A DNA stretch of 64,000 nucleotides from the NCBI GenBank assembly GCA_016192455.1, contig JACPUC010000001.1:1-64000 (forward strand). Reading direction: 5' to 3'. A program made the position numbers and the translations under genes. The stretch comes from Candidatus Tectimicrobiota bacterium. Its GTDB lineage: Bacteria; JACPUC01. Numbering within the stretch: position 1 is the stretch's first letter; every line of letters starts with the position of its first letter. The notes beneath the pieces are model-generated. The model was given only the letters and a program-made list of their open reading frames with translations, searched no databases and was not told the DNA's origin. Shown here one piece after another: positions 237-13,300 of the stretch.

Positions 237-323
237 GCCGAAGTGGCGGAACTGGTAGACGCGTGCGGTTCAGGGCCGTATGCCCGCAAGGGCGTGGGAG
301 TTCGATTCTCCCCTTCGGCACCA
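237..323 (+). tRNA. tRNA-Leu(CAG)
   Basis: An 87-nt class II tRNA. The 7-bp acceptor stem GCCGAAG pairs with CTTCGGC, a long variable arm is present, and the T loop reads TTCGATTC. The anticodon loop TTCAGGG gives anticodon CAG, which reads CUG leucine codons. The CCA end is encoded (321-323). Its last 12 bases form the left part of a 33-bp direct repeat found again at 2834-2866, so it is the likely integration site of the downstream island. Confidence 0.97.
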
Positions 324-344
324 AGTACTTCTTGTAAGTTATTG
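312..344 (+). repeat. attL-like direct repeat (tRNA-Leu 3' end)
   Basis: The 33 bases covering the tRNA 3' end plus 21 bases downstream are repeated without mismatch at 2834-2866. Weaker similarity continues to about 495 in this copy and about 3016 in the other, including a shared GAGTTCAGCTTGAGCAACTC block. This is the classic footprint of site-specific integration into a tRNA 3' end. No integrase gene lies between the copies. Confidence 0.75.
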
Positions 345-669
345 GAATTGCATCAGATATTTGACTTGATGGGTGTGGGAGTTCGTGCCAAAGTCGGTGG
401 GGCTTGAATAGGCACTTAAGCCGCTCTTGCTGCCACGTGCCGCGAGAACGAGCGATCCGTCGTGAGTTCAGCTTGAGCAACTCAACCGATCAGTCACCTG
501 CAGCCTCGACGAAGGCTTCAAGGAGAGACTGAGCCTTCAGCAGCGCTCATTCAAGACGACGCATTGCATTGAGCACGTTCATGTGGTGGAGAAAGAAAGC
601 TACGCTAAGGTCGGTGGCTCGAAGAACTCTAGCAAGAGATGACACTGGAGCGCCGCCTCCGTGGTTGCT
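345..669. other. Island left flank, no gene seen
   Basis: AT-richer DNA without a convincing reading frame. It contains the diverged continuation of the att-like repeat and an extra copy of the T-arm-like string GTGTGGGAGTTCG at 373-385, matching the tRNA variable/T arm at 292-304 with one change. It may be a remnant of an older tRNA-end duplication. Confidence 0.5.
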
Positions 670-2571
670 CTACAGGGTAATTTTGACGTACGCTGATCTC
701 TTTTTGAGTTGAGCTACCTTCCCTTTCATTCCGAGCGTCGTAAGCTTCCGCTTCAGTTCGTTTGCGGCTCTTCTTGGAGTCCCGCCGCTTTTCGTCTCCA
801 GCAGGTAGAGGTATGCCGCGCCTGTTCGTGCTGATAGTTGCAAGATCCCTCCATCAAACTCGTGTTCGATATTCTCCTGAGTCTTGATTAGGCGGATTGA
901 AGCTGTAATTAAGAAATAACGCCGACGCGGACGCGCACTTTGCATCGACCGCGTGCTTTTTTGAAGCTGATTTCGAAGCTGCGCCACTCCGTGTAGCTCG
1001 TGTTGAAGTGATTCGTAGCCCGACTGGACGCGGCGGGGACTGCGTACGATGTGTCGAGTGACACCGTCCTGTAGGTTTGATGCTGACAGCCATATGCAGA
1101 CCTCGTCCGCATCTGTTCCTCGTTCCTGGAACTTTCCAAGACGAGTTAAAGCCCAGGGCTTAAGGTCAACTCTGCATTCGGGCCACGCTATTTTCACAAG
1201 CTGCCCAATGAGGTGCTTGTAAACTTGTTCGAGTTCGGGCTTGGCCATCCAAAAGATATCATCCTGTGGGTCTTCAGGGAAGCTGTCAAGCTTGTCAGTA
1301 ACCCATCGCATAAGGCGTCCTACGTGCTTCGTGAGCGCTTTCCCTAGGACATACACGTCTACGTAAATATGCGCGGGCTCAATGGCGTGTTGAGAATCAA
1401 GTGGTACATATTGAAGCCCTCCGACTGCAAACTCCGCAGTATCACGAGCCCTTGATATCTGAGCCGTTAGTAGCTTCGTCAGCATCTCCTCGGTATCATA
1501 GATGCTTCCAGGCAGGCTCGGGAAGAAACTTCGCAGAGAAATAGAACCGATCAGGCATGAGGTTCGCAGGTCACGCCGTAATAACTTTCCGCGCCGGACT
1601 TTGCTAAGCCGGTGGTCATACATCCAGGAAACGATTGTTCGTTCCGGGTTTTGCTCATTTTTCAGCAAACAAAAAACCCTCCACGCGACCACAGCTGCCA
1701 CCTGACGTGCCTCTGCTCGATGGTAAAAGCGCTCGAAGACCATATGCTCATATGCAACGAGGATCTCTCTGGACTGCATGAGAGCGTCACTTGTCATGCC
1801 TTTGGGATCGACCAGGTTTGAAAGCAAAGGGGAAAGTCCAACCAAGATCGGGGATTCAACAAGTACTGTGTCTTGATTCAGGTACGCTAATCGCCTTACT
1901 AAATTGAAGTACTCGTCGATCTCAGTCCAACGCAGATTCGGTTGACGCAGCTCCTTCAGCACAAACGGCGCGAACAAATCGTGAATCAGCCAGTCAGGCA
2001 CATTTACCCTGACCCGCTTGTGTGCGAAATCCGCTGCCAACTTGATTATGCTCAACAAGCGGCTAAGGATTAGATAGTCACCATCCGCAAGACTTGAATC
2101 AGCTTTATCCATTAGTAGGCTGACCCTGCTGTCATTCACAATATCATCAGAGCCATAGTTCTCCACGAGGAGAGCCATAAGTCTTTCACCGCTTTGTCTC
2201 TGAGAAAGAAGAAATCGGCACACACCCTTTTCGACACTGTATGTTCCCGGTAGGTGCCCAATGTTCGAGATGAGAGCAAGACACTGAAGGGCGGCAGCAG
2301 TAGAGGAAAAATTCGCATTACCGAGAGAGAAGTTGGTGTTTGTAGTCAGACTACGGAGGCGGGTAGCAACGTAAAGCATTGAGACCGTATAGTCCCAGCG
2401 ATTATGCGAGATCCCAGGATAAGCGAATTCCAGAGCCCCGATGTGCGGAAGGCAACGTAAACGGTGTGTTTCTCCTGCCTTTCTAAGGAGGGAATAGACG
2501 GTGTCCGCCGGGGGGTAAAGGGGAATACTGACCGGGCCAACGTTAGGAATGGTGTAGCGAATCGGATCCAT
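670..2571 (-). CDS. Degenerate HD-domain (dGTPase/SAMHD1-like) protein, 633 aa
   Basis: The N-terminal 35-120 region follows the pattern of HD phosphohydrolases of the dGTPase/SAMHD1 type: YPGISHNRW (51-59) resembles the family's yPgatHtRfeH, and ISNIGHLPGTYSVE (101-114) resembles LLHDIGHgPfsH..fE. The metal ligands are gone. The first His is Tyr61 and the HD pair is Ser102-Asn103, so phosphohydrolase activity is unlikely. The remaining ~500 residues are not recognised. The gene is the only one inside the tRNA-Leu island and its base composition is visibly less GC-rich than its neighbours, indicating transfer. The ATG start sits 6 bases after a TATAAT box, suggesting a leaderless message. A role in sensing or defence is only a guess. 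Confidence 0.6.
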   Translation of the reverse strand: MDPIRYTIPNVGPVSIPLYPPADTVYSLLRKAGETHRLRCLPHIGALEFAYPGISHNRWDYTVSMLYVATRLRSLTTNTNFSLGNANFSSTAAALQCLALISNIGHLPGTYSVEKGVCRFLLSQRQSGERLMALLVENYGSDDIVNDSRVSLLMDKADSSLADGDYLILSRLLSIIKLAADFAHKRVRVNVPDWLIHDLFAPFVLKELRQPNLRWTEIDEYFNLVRRLAYLNQDTVLVESPILVGLSPLLSNLVDPKGMTSDALMQSREILVAYEHMVFERFYHRAEARQVAAVVAWRVFCLLKNEQNPERTIVSWMYDHRLSKVRRGKLLRRDLRTSCLIGSISLRSFFPSLPGSIYDTEEMLTKLLTAQISRARDTAEFAVGGLQYVPLDSQHAIEPAHIYVDVYVLGKALTKHVGRLMRWVTDKLDSFPEDPQDDIFWMAKPELEQVYKHLIGQLVKIAWPECRVDLKPWALTRLGKFQERGTDADEVCIWLSASNLQDGVTRHIVRSPRRVQSGYESLQHELHGVAQLRNQLQKSTRSMQSARPRRRYFLITASIRLIKTQENIEHEFDGGILQLSARTGAAYLYLLETKSGGTPRRAANELKRKLTTLGMKGKVAQLKKRSAYVKITL

Positions 2572-2833: not shown

Positions 2834-2866
2834 CCTTCGGCACCAAGTACTTCTTGTAAGTTATTG
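2834..2866 (+). repeat. attR-like direct repeat
   Basis: Identical over 33 bases to 312-344, that is, the last 12 bases of tRNA-Leu(CAG) plus 21 bases. The interval between the copies is 2.5 kb and holds one gene. Homology continues past the perfect core to about 3016. Confidence 0.75.
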
Positions 2867-3191
2867 TAATTACATGCGATATGAAAGTGTCTAGGCGTGG
2901 GAGTTCGGGCCGAAGGTGCTGGAGTTTCGATTGGGCAGACCAGTCATCCTCCCACCATTTGCTGCGTGAGTACGAGCAATCCTTCCTCAGTTCAGCTTGA
3001 GCAACTCAACCAGTCAGCGCCACTGGTGCGCCGCGGTCCTGCTCGACATCGAGCCGCGCCTGAGGAAAGCATTGCGTGGCCGCGAAACCGGGGGAACTTC
3101 AGGACCGGAAGCGCGAGCGCACCTGGGACTACGTTGACTTCCCCGAGCAGCGCGGCGCCTGGCGCTGCTTCCGCCGCGGCCTTCCCTCACC

Positions 3192-8049: not shown

Positions 8050-8931
8050 GGTCCTCACCCTCCTGCACAAACGAGTACTGCCCTTGGAGGTGACGGCGAC
8101 GGGCCATGGTCCGCGTCTGGACCGCCACCTCGGCCGCGATCCTCGAAAAGATCGCGCGACATTGTAAAACCGAAACCGAGCGAGTCTTCTTTAGGGAAAG
8201 GACTACCCTTTAAGGGTAAATGTTGTACACACAAGCGCTGCAACGCCGCATGGGGCTAACCATGGGCAACCCAAAGGGTGAAGGTTGAGCATGGCACGAA
8301 TCGACGCCCGCCGCAAGGTTGAATCACCACGCCTCGGCGAGGTGCAGATCGCCACGGAGCCCCCGACCGCCAGTGAGGGCGGGAGCCGCTTGGTGCGCCA
8401 CCTGGCCAGCATCGGGCCGGCGCCGTATGTCGAGCGGCTTTCCCAGTGCCTGCGTGTCACCCCTCATCCATTCCTTGCCACCTCATGCAATGATTCCGGA
8501 CAGATGCTGGAGCACTGGGACGAAGAGGCGGGCACGGCGAGCGCTGGCCGGCGCGGCTCCCCACCTTCCACCAGCGCGACGCGCAGGCAGGCCTGCGGGC
8601 CGGCTCAATTCAAGCGGCTGCTGCTTCACCATCCTGAGCCGTTCCGAGCCGCCCAGCTTCAGCTTCAGCTTCGGCGCAAGGCGCAAGCCGGCGCACCGCC
8701 AGCGACGCCTGCCTCACCGCCCCTGACCCGACGGGGACCGCCCCCGCAGGCGCCGCAAGGGCACCTCGCCTCCCCTTTGAAAACCAGCCAGGAAAGCCGT
8801 ACCTTTATAGCCGTCGTTGACAGTGGGGGGATTCGCTGCTCGTTCGCGTTGCCGTTGCAGCTTCTGAACGGCATCCCACCAGGGGACGGTCGAGGACGGG
8901 AGTCTTCTTGGGAGGCTCTCGAGGAGGTGCC
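8050..8931. other. Divergent intergenic region, no supported gene
   Basis: 882 bases between divergent ubiD and acyl-CoA dehydrogenase genes. A plus-strand frame is open from 8285 to 8989, but its translation is low-complexity, rich in Pro/Arg/Ala, shows no family features and overlaps the dehydrogenase start, so I do not call it. A perfect inverted repeat lies at 8204-8218. Confidence 0.4.
8204..8218. promoter_or_regulatory. Operator-like inverted repeat
   Basis: TACCCTT-T-AAGGGTA is a perfect 7-bp inverted repeat with a one-base centre, about 155 bases upstream of the ubiD start in the divergent region. It could bind a dimeric regulator. Function is inferred only. Confidence 0.3.
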
Positions 8932-10086
8932 ATGCGTATCGAGATTTCCGAACTTCCCGAGGAAACCCAGCTTATCGTTGGGGAGCTGAAGAACCTCTTG
9001 AAGAAGCACCTCAACGAGGAGCTGATCGCCGAGCACGAGCAGAAGAAACGCCTGCCGCAGCACGTCCTGGGCGCCCTCTTCGAGCAGGGGTTCATGGGCA
9101 TGTTGACGCCGGAGGAGTACGGCGGCAGCCCCTCGACCATGACCACCCTGGCGGCCGTGGGGGAAGAGATCGCCGCCGCCTGGGCCAGCCTCATGCTCGC
9201 CTGGTCGGTGCAGAACACCCTGGCGCCGACGGCCCTCCTCATCGCCGGCAGCGAGGCCCAGAAGCGCGCCTGGCTGCCGCGCCTGGCCCAGCGCGACCTC
9301 GGCGCCTTTGCCCTGACGGAGCCGGAGTGCGGATCGGACTCCGCCGCCCTGCAGCTCAAGGCCGCCAAGACCGACCACGGCTGGCTGCTGAACGGCAGGA
9401 AGATCTTCATCTCGAACGCCGTCGGCGGCAAGATCGCCACCGTTTACGCCCGCACCGCGCCGCCGAAGCACACCGGCATCAGCGCCTTCATGGTGGATAT
9501 GGAGGCGGCGACGGCGAACGGGGGCTTGAAGATCAACCAGCAGATGGAGCAAAAGCTGGGGGTGAACGCCTCGCCCATCGCCGAGCTCGTCTTCGACAAC
9601 TGCGAGCTGCCGCGCGACGCCCTCGTCGGCGAGGAGGGGCAGGGGTTCATCCTGGCTATGAAGACGCTTGATGTCGGGCGCGTGACCATCGCCGCGCAGG
9701 CCCTCGGCGTCGCCCGCAGCGCCCTCGCCGCCGCCAAGGAGTATATGGGGGAACGCAGCGCCTTCGGCCGCAAGCTCAAGGAGCTCGACAAGCTGCGCGC
9801 CAAGCTGGCGCATATGCAGACGAAGTACGACGCGGCCCGCCTCCTCACCTTCCGCGCCGCCTGGCTGCAGGATGAGGGCAAGGAGTTCACCCGCCTGGCC
9901 TCCGAGGCGAAGCTCTTCGCCACCAAGGCGGCCGAGGAGATCACCAACGACGCCGTGCAGATCCATGGCGGCGTGGGCGTCATCCTGCCGGTGGAGCGCC
10001 TCTACCGCGACGCCAAGGTCTTCTCCATCTATGAAGGCACCAGCGAAATCCAGGAGAACATCATCGCCCGCGAGCTGCTCGATTAA
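8932..10086 (+). CDS. Acyl-CoA dehydrogenase
   Basis: 384 residues, a typical FAD-dependent acyl-CoA dehydrogenase that oxidises acyl-CoA to 2-enoyl-CoA. Visible signatures are FALTEPECGSDSAAL (FAD/substrate loop), ISNAVGG, RSAFGRKLKEL, QIHGGVGVI and the C-terminal IYEGTSEIQ, where Glu368 is at the position of the catalytic base in most family members. ATG at 8932 is preceded by GAGGAGG at 5-base spacing; the frame is open upstream but without a better site. No electron-transfer flavoprotein or hydratase gene adjoins it. Chain-length or branched/aromatic specificity cannot be read from the sequence. Confidence 0.94.
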   Translation: MRIEISELPEETQLIVGELKNLLKKHLNEELIAEHEQKKRLPQHVLGALFEQGFMGMLTPEEYGGSPSTMTTLAAVGEEIAAAWASLMLAWSVQNTLAPTALLIAGSEAQKRAWLPRLAQRDLGAFALTEPECGSDSAALQLKAAKTDHGWLLNGRKIFISNAVGGKIATVYARTAPPKHTGISAFMVDMEAATANGGLKINQQMEQKLGVNASPIAELVFDNCELPRDALVGEEGQGFILAMKTLDVGRVTIAAQALGVARSALAAAKEYMGERSAFGRKLKELDKLRAKLAHMQTKYDAARLLTFRAAWLQDEGKEFTRLASEAKLFATKAAEEITNDAVQIHGGVGVILPVERLYRDAKVFSIYEGTSEIQENIIARELLD

Positions 10087-10365
10087 ACGAGCCGGCTCAC
10101 TGTCATGGCTCAGCCTTGCGCCTCGAAGTGCGAGGTTGTCATTCGGTCGCGGGGCGCTTCAGTGGCGGGGTGTCGGTGCCGCCGAAGGGTTCCGCGCCCA
10201 TCGTGACAGGCGATCGGGGCTCCCGCCTCCTGGCACGGAGCCCTCCGCCGCATCGTCACCGCATTGCCACACGCTCTCTGCAATGCCGCTGCAGTTTCAT
10301 CCGTCTGCGGGTCGCAGATGGGGGGGAATAGATGCACCTGAACTGGAATTGCAGAGGAGCATGCC

Positions 10366-13300
10366 ATGTTCCCGCGGGCCCGGTTACTTGCTGCCTTGCT
10401 GGCTTCTCTCCTCCTTCTCGGCCTCTCCACCACCTCAGCACGGTCGCAGGGGGGGCTCACCCTCACCCTCGAGCCCGCCGCGGTGCGCGCCGGTGAGGTC
10501 CTGCGCCTGTCGGCGGCGGGCCTTCCCGACCTTCCCCTCCTCATCGCCGCCTCCACCGCCAACAGCGGCCTGGGCGAGGTCGGCGGGCAGCCCCTCCTCC
10601 TGGGACCAGACGCCTTCGTGCTCTTCACGGTGCGGACGGACGCTGAGGGCAGATTCAGCGTGACGGTGAGCATCCCTCCCGGCGTCGGCGGCACCTTCTT
10701 CCTCCAGGCAGCTCAGGCACTCGAAGCCGATTTCTCTCGCCTCCTCCTCTCCAACGGCGCGCAGGTGGCCATCACCGGGTTGCCCGCGAACCCGGACACC
10801 GTCTTCATCCCGCACCTCGACGGCGACGGCGACGGCATCCCCAATTTCTTGGAGGGGAGTGGGGACGCCGACGGCGACGGCGTGCCGAACTTCCTCGACC
10901 CCGACAGCGACGGCGACGGCATCCCGGATAGCGCGGCGGCATCCACCTCCGGTGCTTCCTACGTGGATACGGACGGCGACGGCATCCCCGACTTCCTCGA
11001 TCGGGACGATGACGGCGACGGCATCCCGGACAGCGAGGACGATGACCCGCTGACGCCCGTTTCCCCGACCGACTTCCGCAGCGAGGCGCGCCTGGTCGTC
11101 CGCTCACTCGAAACGCGCGTCACCGGCCTGTCGCTGGCGGCGGCGGCGCGCCCCGGCGACCTCATCGACCTGGTGGTGCAGGGGATCAGCGCGAGCCGCG
11201 GCGGCTACGCGGTGCTCTTCAGCACCGGCGCCGAAGACGGCTCGCGGCTGCCCGTGGCGCCCATCGCCGTGCGGCCCGAAGGGGAGGGGAGCGTCGAGCG
11301 CCTGACGGTGCGGGTGCCCGAGACCGCCAGCAGTGGGCCGGTGCAGGTCCGCCAGGGGGCGCTCCTCTCGGACGAGGTGGCGCTTCAGGTGGTGCCGCCG
11401 GCCCTGCCGCTGATCATCAGCCAGCAGGAGGACGACCCCGCCAGCCCCTTGGTGGCCTCCATCGCCGAAGGTGCGCCGCTGACGCTCATCGGCGATGGGT
11501 TCCGCCAAGATGACATGGTCATGTTCGCCACGGCTGAGGGCGCCGAATTTTCCCAGAGACCAACGACGGTCAGCCCCGACGGCAGCGAGCTGTCGGTGGA
11601 ACTCCCCCACCCCGCAGTGCGCCTCGTGTGGATCGAGCGCCAGGGGAGCGAGAGCAACCGCTTGCTGCTGAACGTCACGCGTCAGGTCAGCGGCCGCCTC
11701 GAGCTGCCGCCGGGGATCGCCGTGGCGGAGCTGCGCGTCGAGAGCGGTCTGCTGGCGGAGGCGACACCGGCCGCGGACGGCAGCTTCAGCATCGCGGTGC
11801 GCGCCCAGGCGCGCCCACTGATCGAGGTGGTGGAGGCTTCGACGGGGGTCATCCTCCTCATGGCGTTCGTCGAGTCCACCGCCTCCGACGTGGTGGTGAC
11901 CCCCCTCACCACCGTCACCGCCCAGATCGTCCGCGCTCTCATGCTCGAGGTGAGCCTGGAGGATGCCTCGCTGCCTGAGGCCCTGGCGATCATCGCCGCG
12001 ACGCCGGAGGCGGCGGCCGCGGCGGCGGTGCTGGCGGAACGCCTGCCGCTGGACCGCACCCTGCTTATCGGGCGGGACGAGCGCTACGCCGCTGCTTTCA
12101 CCAGCGCCGTCGAGGCCGCCAACACCGCCTTGCGGGCGGCGCTCGACCAGGGGCGCCTGCGCGCCAAGGCGCAGCGCGCCGGAACGAAGCGCGAGGCGAG
12201 AATCCTGCCGCGGCAAGAGCAGTACGACATCATGCTTGCCGAGAACCCGGCCGATCCGGGGAATTTGCTGATCGAGAACGATACCCAACTGCTGCTCAGC
12301 GTGCAGATGAAAGACAAAGAGAACGGCGACATCCTGCACAGCCACGCACGGACCTTCTTTGACAACAACGTCGTGGGACCTCAAGGAGGCGGCCTGCTCT
12401 TCATCGCCAGCACGAAGTTCTTCAAGCTCCCGCAAAACCGCGACGTCGAGGTCGAGATACTCACCGGCGGCTTGTTCAGCGACGTCACGCCAACACCCTT
12501 GCAGCTCGAGACGAATACGGTCCTTACGGTGCGCTTCTCACTCGAGCGCATCTTGACCCCCGTCATCAACTCCATGCTGGATGCCATCTTCTCGCCGCAG
12601 ATCGGCATCCCGCGCTCCCAGCACCTGTTCATCAGGGTGGTCGCCAACTTCGGCGACGACTTCATGCGCCAGCTCGTGAGCTTCGCCGTCTCAGAAGAAC
12701 ACCACGACATCTATGAGATTGTCGCCTTCGCGGCCCGCCTCCTCTTCGAGGACGCCTGGCAGTTCCCCCCAGGCCCGCTCACCACCCACCTCATCCAAGC
12801 CTTGCTCCTCACGAGAGGGCCCAATGTGGCGGTCGTCCTCGTCGATAAGCTCGCCAAGCGTCTGGCGGGCCAGCTCAACGCCATCTCCAGCGCCCTCCTC
12901 GTGCTGCGCACGGTCACCAACATGGTCGGCGTCTCCAAGGCGGTGGCTGATATCGTGACCGTCCCGGCGATCGTCGAGTTCGAGGCGGACTTCGCGCAGC
13001 CCATCGTCGAATCCATCGATCCCTCCTGCATCTCCTCCCGCCAGACCGAACTGGACGCCGTCGTTGTGGGACGCAACTTCCGCAACTTCGATGACGACCT
13101 CGACGCCGAGCCGAACTTCGCCGTCAGCATCCCCTTCGAGGAGGGCGGCAGCGCGACGCGCCACGAAGTCCTGGTGCGGGCCGGCACGTACGGGCGCGTC
13201 ACCTCCCTGAACGCGCGGGGCACGCGCGCTCTCGTGCGCTTCCAGACGGCCGGCGGCACGTTCGCCGGCGGCGCCGTGCAGGCGCGCTTCGGCGAGACGC

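Follow-up and report, generated by a model that had tools for sequence, protein, structure and literature searches.

To our knowledge, the HD proteins known to take part in antiviral defence act by destroying dNTPs. The family described here would resemble such dGTPase-type systems in placing an HD-type protein that binds dNTPs in a defence context, but depletion of the dNTP pool needs catalysis, which the metal-less site of the family should not support. The HD dNTPases SAMHD1, EF1143 and BT4208 share with the family the N-terminal homology and the nucleotide-contact residues; the family differs from them in the replacement of the general acid and of all four metal ligands, in an extra nuclease-like domain at the C-terminus, and in its defence neighbourhoods, theirs being housekeeping ones. 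In SAMHD1 the HD metal is held by His167, His206, Asp207 and Asp311, the dNTP phosphates are bound by Arg164, His210, Lys312 and Arg366, and the 3'-OH is bound by residue 319 together with Gln149, His215 being the general acid, whose replacement alone (H215A) abolishes activity (PMC7311409). The structures of SAMHD1 have largely been solved with the metal-disrupting mutant H206R/D207N, in which the metal site is empty and the dNTP is bound (PMC7311409). In respect to the C-terminal half, HamA is the D-E(X)K nuclease of the Hachiman phage defence (PMC12278908), and its motif resembles that of the effector nuclease predicted in the family, which however goes without a HamB-type helicase partner and carries its own SAMHD1-like half. 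A further comparison is offered by the nuclease partners of YprA-type helicases (DISARM, Druantia, ARMADA; PMC12458937), as one relative follows a methyltransferase (MTase) and a DruE/YprA-type helicase, whereas elsewhere the family occurs without YprA; neither SAMHD1 nor an HD domain came up in a search of the text of that paper.

The window, that is the whole stretch of 64,000 nucleotides analysed here (contig JACPUC010000001.1), carries the gene of interest as an intact ORF of 633 codons with zero internal stops, 346 bp downstream of a tRNA-Leu(CAG) gene (Table 1); the plus strand has 29 stops over the same interval. A phmmer search with the single protein retrieved the BT4208 phosphohydrolase (2q14, E=3.2e-5) and, weakly, SAMHD1, and with a family profile the matches were 2q14 (E=2.6e-7), 2o6i (1.9e-5), 9mr6 (3.1e-5) and SAMHD1 (6e-4), while hhalign of the family profile against ordinary HD proteins gave P of about 1e-10. 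The full-length protein gave a weak model (mean pLDDT of 59); when this model was submitted to Foldseek, the first 20 places were all taken by SAMHD1, EF1143 and BT4208 chains, with E values from 1.4e-3. As the alignments to this group of chains span 340–490 columns, the SAMHD1-like region probably reaches well past residue 124. These comparisons of sequence establish the N-terminus as homologous to SAMHD1-type HD dNTPases, well above chance, as the earlier note on this DNA had proposed, and no other fold fits better.

Table 1. Features of the pseudo-HD gene and of the tRNA-linked element that carries it (positions in the window).
Feature	Position	Strand	Remarks
Pseudo-HD / predicted nuclease gene	670..2571	minus	ATG start, 633 aa
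HD domain of the SAMHD1 type that lacks the HD residues, residues 1-124	2200..2571	minus	sequence and profile homology
Residues 125-450, largely helical low-confidence continuation of the SAMHD1-like region	1222..2199	minus	full-length model and Foldseek
C-terminal domain, predicted PD-(D/E)XK-type nuclease, residues 451-633	673..1221	minus	AF2 and alignment
R-W-D-Y, residues 58-61: R58 = SAMHD1 Arg164, kept; Y61 = metal ligand His167, lost	2389..2400	minus	
S-N-I-G-H, residues 102-106: His206-Asp207 replaced by S-N; H106 = His210, kept	2254..2268	minus	
RRLAYLNQD, residues 226-234, counterpart of the DxDRxDYxxRD motif: Asp311 replaced by R226; sugar contact Asp319 = D234, kept	1870..1896	minus	
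D573, invariant	853..855	minus	alignment
E592-T-K594, E and K invariant	790..798	minus	alignment
tRNA-Leu(CAG), integration target	237..323	plus	
Left end of the element, beginning inside the tRNA 3' end	307..493	plus	
Right end of the element; 78% identity with that of the sibling on contig C4	2669..2830	plus	
Repeat of the tRNA 3' end together with left-end sequence; either attR or what is left of a second, tandem element	2834..3017	plus	

We have analyzed the former active site in an alignment of 14 members, of which three (G259, L023 and L024) are near-identical, one is partial and one is an IS66-interrupted gene that was joined for the alignment only. Twelve columns in all are invariant: G45, R58, N103, G105, H106, T110, R226, D234, Y283, D573, E592 and K594. 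All four metal ligands are replaced throughout the family, His167 by Tyr (once by Phe) at position 61, His206 by Ser, Trp, Tyr or Ala at 102, Asp207 by Asn at 103 and Asp311 by Arg at 226; in all members that include this region, S/W/Y/A and then N stand in place of the HD pair, followed by x-G-H. The replacements at Tyr61 and Ser102-Asn103 pointed out earlier are thus borne out, and R226 in place of the late Asp is added to them as a fourth. The position of the general acid His215 is occupied by Tyr, Phe or Leu (residue 111). On the other hand, the phosphate contacts Arg164 and His210 correspond to the invariant R58 and H106, and the 3'-OH contact at residue 319 to the invariant D234. The register of R226 and D234 derives from hhalign of residues 1–450, which places RRLAYLNQD on DxDRxDYxxRD at the right spacing; it is moderately supported, as the piece alone gives P=0.25 and the support comes from colinearity and spacing. 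A late-Asp motif at residues 155–170, considered as an alternative register, found no support in hhalign.

As far as can be judged from the aligned residues, a site from which the metal is gone and in which the nucleotide contacts are kept fits the pattern of a binding site without catalysis. The situation is similar to that of the H206R/D207N mutant of SAMHD1, in which the HD pair is also replaced, N103 being the same Asp-to-Asn change; the differences are that here the replacement is natural and family-wide and that the late Asp has also become Arg. The family may hence be regarded as the natural counterpart of that mutant.

Residues 451–633, the C-terminal domain, gave a confident AF2 model with pLDDT of 88.3 and pTM of 0.87, in which a long helix is followed by strands 1–3, a helix and strands 4–5, with D573 on strand 2 and E592-x-K594 ending strand 3. 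In an alignment of 12 C-terminal sequences the sole invariant columns are the D, E and K of D-x18-ExK. The domain thus displays both features by which PD-(D/E)XK nucleases are recognized, namely the D...(D/E)XK triad and the alpha-beta-beta-beta-alpha-beta order with the D on strand 2 and the ExK on strand 3. Foldseek comparison of the model with the PDB and with BFVD yielded no significant match (best E of 0.089 and 0.069, respectively), and neither did searches of Pfam, NCBIfam and the PDB sequences, so that the nuclease fold is assigned from the motif and the topology. We predict on these grounds that the domain is a nuclease of the PD-(D/E)XK type. Membership in the HamA family was considered and rejected, the best match to Pfam HamA (DUF1837) being non-significant (E=0.054, C-terminus of one relative) and the loci examined showing no HamB. 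On a Priestia plasmid (L004:7001-7516) the C-terminal nuclease-like half is found alone, adjoining a DUF6602 protein, which itself shows a D...ExK-like motif.

These results modify the earlier description of the protein. The extension of 500 residues, the fold of which had been called unknown, does not form one uncharacterised block: it first carries on the helical region of the SAMHD1-like part, and the nuclease-like domain makes up its end. The designation of the whole protein as an inactive version is unsupported in view of the invariant D...ExK motif of the C-terminal domain, and a role as decoy is disfavoured by the same predicted-nuclease triad. The suggestion of a sensor survives, as do the SAMHD1-like assignment and the loss of the metal site.

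We have found the family in about 12 lineages, including Clostridia, Bacilli, Synergistota-like bacteria and Hebobacteria, with identities down to around 17–20%. Scans of genome contigs and of viral contigs with the single protein, as well as tblastn against phages, returned no relatives; the family was reached via a weak plasmid match in Peribacillus and then by profile searches, which recovered members in a Clostridia MAG (G115/L019), the Synergistota-like genome G259 (a placement that we base on its genes), a Bacillota MAG (L021), UBA4845, Rummeliibacillus and one viral contig. A later scan of viral contigs with A7 gave no matches. The member from Ca. Hebobacteria (L020) is 51% identical to the protein of the window, and a Bacillota-type sample of 398 genomes contributed six or seven further members or fragments, G867 in that sample being L021 again. 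An intact HD was seen in none of the homologues that share the architecture of the family, and nothing comparable to the C-terminal motif was seen in long HD proteins whose HD motifs are intact (L066, L068, L069 and L070). The loss of the HD in every member, together with the lack of the C-terminal motif in intact-HD proteins, indicates that this is a conserved pseudoenzyme family and not a decaying HD gene. A Deinococcus match (H7, E=7) was discarded as due to chance, since it lies on the strand opposite to an annotated gene, and matches in Bacteroides, Paenibacillus, G012, G281, G416 and others were set aside as ordinary HD enzymes without the C-terminal motif. No model of Pfam, NCBIfam or PADLOC 2.0 matches the family, and searches of the open literature, incomplete in coverage, turned up neither a description of the family nor any case of phage defence by an HD pseudoenzyme or by a nuclease that senses dNTPs. 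The family is thus an undescribed one, and it is associated with defence, as detailed below.

The neighbourhoods of the relatives are rich in defence genes. In L022, L023, L024 and G259 the pseudo-HD gene is the fourth gene of an HsdM-S-R operon, around 30 bp behind HsdR, and this operon occurs in four near-identical copies, which are spread over Synergistota-like genomes, Bacilli and a viral contig. In L021 the gene is preceded by an Eco57I/IIG-like MTase and by a DruE/YprA-type helicase of 1801 aa, and in G115 it is adjoined by an OLD/GajA-like ATPase, a TerB_N protein and a pair of MTase and MutH-type restriction endonuclease. On the Peribacillus plasmid the gene stands opposite PDC-M01A/B (Septu-like ATPase and HNH), with a tyrosine integrase nearby; L063 has an MTase and HsdS on one side and a tyrosine integrase on the other; in L064 the gene is flanked by SIR2-HerA and, on its other side, by Dcm, Vsr and a pair of HATPase and helicase; and in L065 a fragment of the gene adjoins a resolvase and AbiE. 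In L060 the gene lies behind serine recombinases at the end of a prophage, and on the Priestia plasmid the C-terminal fragment adjoins DUF6602, a helicase and a PbeC/DndD-like ATPase. Recombinases adjoin the gene in L060, L063, L065 and L003. No defence neighbour was seen for the copies of the window, L020 and L062, and L059 and L061 lie at contig ends. As a control, we have inspected the neighbours of ordinary HD genes, where 3 of 10 gave PADLOC hits, which were weaker (38–90 bits) and partly to housekeeping paralogues; since PADLOC is therefore not fully specific, enrichment was judged from the identity of the operons and not from hit counts. On this basis, and with an imperfect control, the family is repeatedly co-located with defence genes in unrelated genomes, as genes of defence islands are, so that the survey of homologues named in the earlier note as a check has a positive outcome.

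Some observations on these loci stand apart. The near-identical operon of L022, L023, L024 and L013 (Synergistota-like, UBA4845, Rummeliibacillus and the viral contig) has a variable HsdS and points to recent transfer across phyla. The locus L021:79-7877 may represent a variant of Druantia/ARMADA that brings along a nuclease gene of its own. At L012:5235-6170 a TerB_N protein with a weak match to SngA adjoins an OLD/GajA-like ATPase and the pseudo-HD gene, and at L064:8147-12533 the homologue is split by an IS66-like insertion (transposase at 8903-10441).

Taking these data together, we consider it moderately probable that the protein is a stand-alone defence effector in which a non-hydrolysing nucleotide sensor gates a DNase. 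The SAMHD1-like half, devoid of the catalytic metal, would bind but not hydrolyse a nucleotide, which is most likely a dNTP, and the C-terminal half would be a metal-dependent PD-(D/E)XK DNase, held in check until infection. A phage infection, or the arrival of some other element, would alter the nucleotide pool or supply a DNA or nucleotide ligand; binding or loss of the ligand in the SAMHD1-like half would then release or assemble the nuclease, which would cut the DNA of the invader or all DNA. The data show the family itself, its motifs and its genomic setting; that its members bind nucleotides, cut DNA, couple the one to the other and protect against phages is what we infer. More tentatively, and with less confidence than doubt, one may envisage a class of immune proteins in which a catalytically dead SAMHD1, with an invariant Arg at a former metal-ligand position, serves as dNTP sensor fused to a DNase, a phage-driven change of the dNTP pool being read in the old active site and turned into DNA cutting. 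Both halves come from known superfamilies and the combination of sensor and effector nuclease is of a known kind, the idea of the sensor being new if confirmed. If true, it would represent a new way of sensing infection in bacteria, in which the signal is the nucleotide pool and a single polypeptide unites sensor and effector. The interest of the case lies in an enzyme site that is dead across a whole, widely transferred family in which the ligand contacts and the attached predicted nuclease are kept; whatever the mechanism, an undescribed defence-associated family gains a domain assignment and an active site that can be tested.

Other explanations have to be weighed against that of a gated nuclease. 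SAMHD1 proteins are known to work in tetrameric form and to bind single-stranded DNA or RNA, and several relatives lie directly behind restriction-modification (RM) or helicase genes, whose products are possible partners; the SAMHD1-like half could thus be a scaffold for tetramer assembly, or a docking surface for DNA or partners, that senses no small ligand and serves the same nuclease. We regard this as unlikely, as a mere scaffold need not keep R58, H106, D234 or an invariant Arg at the metal-ligand position, and the partners differ at every locus, the copies of the window and L020 having none nearby. That the protein is an accessory of RM systems, either a DNA-binding regulator or an extra restriction subunit which moves with RM operons and senses no infection, would agree with its place as fourth gene of the HsdM-S-R operon in the four near-identical copies and with the MTase and HsdS of L063, but has a low probability, given that the solo copies (window, L020 and L062) and those found with OLD, PDC-M01, AbiE and SIR2-HerA share no RM partner. 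Improbable as well is a stand-alone nuclease that serves the mobile element itself, by excluding competitors or by stabilisation, and not the defence of the host: the recombinases next to the gene in L060, L063, L065 and L003 and its position as the only cargo of a small element in the window speak in its favour, whereas many copies lie inside clusters of several defence systems, although these two readings are in principle hard to separate. Finally, hydrolysis of a nucleotide by other chemistry in the SAMHD1-like half, with defence by nucleotide depletion, is very improbable despite the invariance of H106 (His210) and R58, because none of the four metal ligands has been retained and the position of His215, the residue whose change to Ala by itself kills SAMHD1 activity (PMC7311409), is Y/F/L111.

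The gene of the window lies in an element of about 2.5 kb with low GC content (51% between the repeat copies and 67% outside). The element is bounded by a direct repeat of around 185 bp, made of the tRNA 3' end and some 170 bp beyond it, with 75% identity between the copies and a local score of 180, as compared to a maximum of 47 in 200 shuffles. The pseudo-HD gene is the only convincing gene inside and there is no integrase between tRNA-Leu and the repeated tRNA 3' end, in agreement with the previous view of the protein as sole cargo of an island; five integrase genes are present elsewhere in the genome. Its repeated tRNA 3' end and shifted GC are those of a tRNA-targeted integrative element, but it has no integrase of its own. 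As left-end-like sequence continues past the repeated tRNA end, the second copy may be the remnant of another, tandem element. An integron attC was considered for the right end and dropped, as no palindromic structure was seen, and the end sequence of the element was not found in viral contigs.

A search of the genome matched the left end on contigs C4 (10096-10270) and C2 (68694-68787), and the right end on C4 (13934-14094) and, more weakly, on C2, from which it follows that C4 carries an element of 4.0 kb and C2 one of roughly 2.5 kb with the same ends. These siblings (G000 C4:10076-14094, L033, and C2:68673-71221, L034:10674-13222) have ends of around 190 bp on the left and 160 bp on the right; their GC is below that of the host, and their cargo is different and without Pfam matches. 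No integrase was seen in either, and the simplest reading is that these two and the element of the window belong to one family of elements that carry cargo and are mobilized in trans. The sibling on C4 begins in a fragment that resembles a tRNA 3' end.
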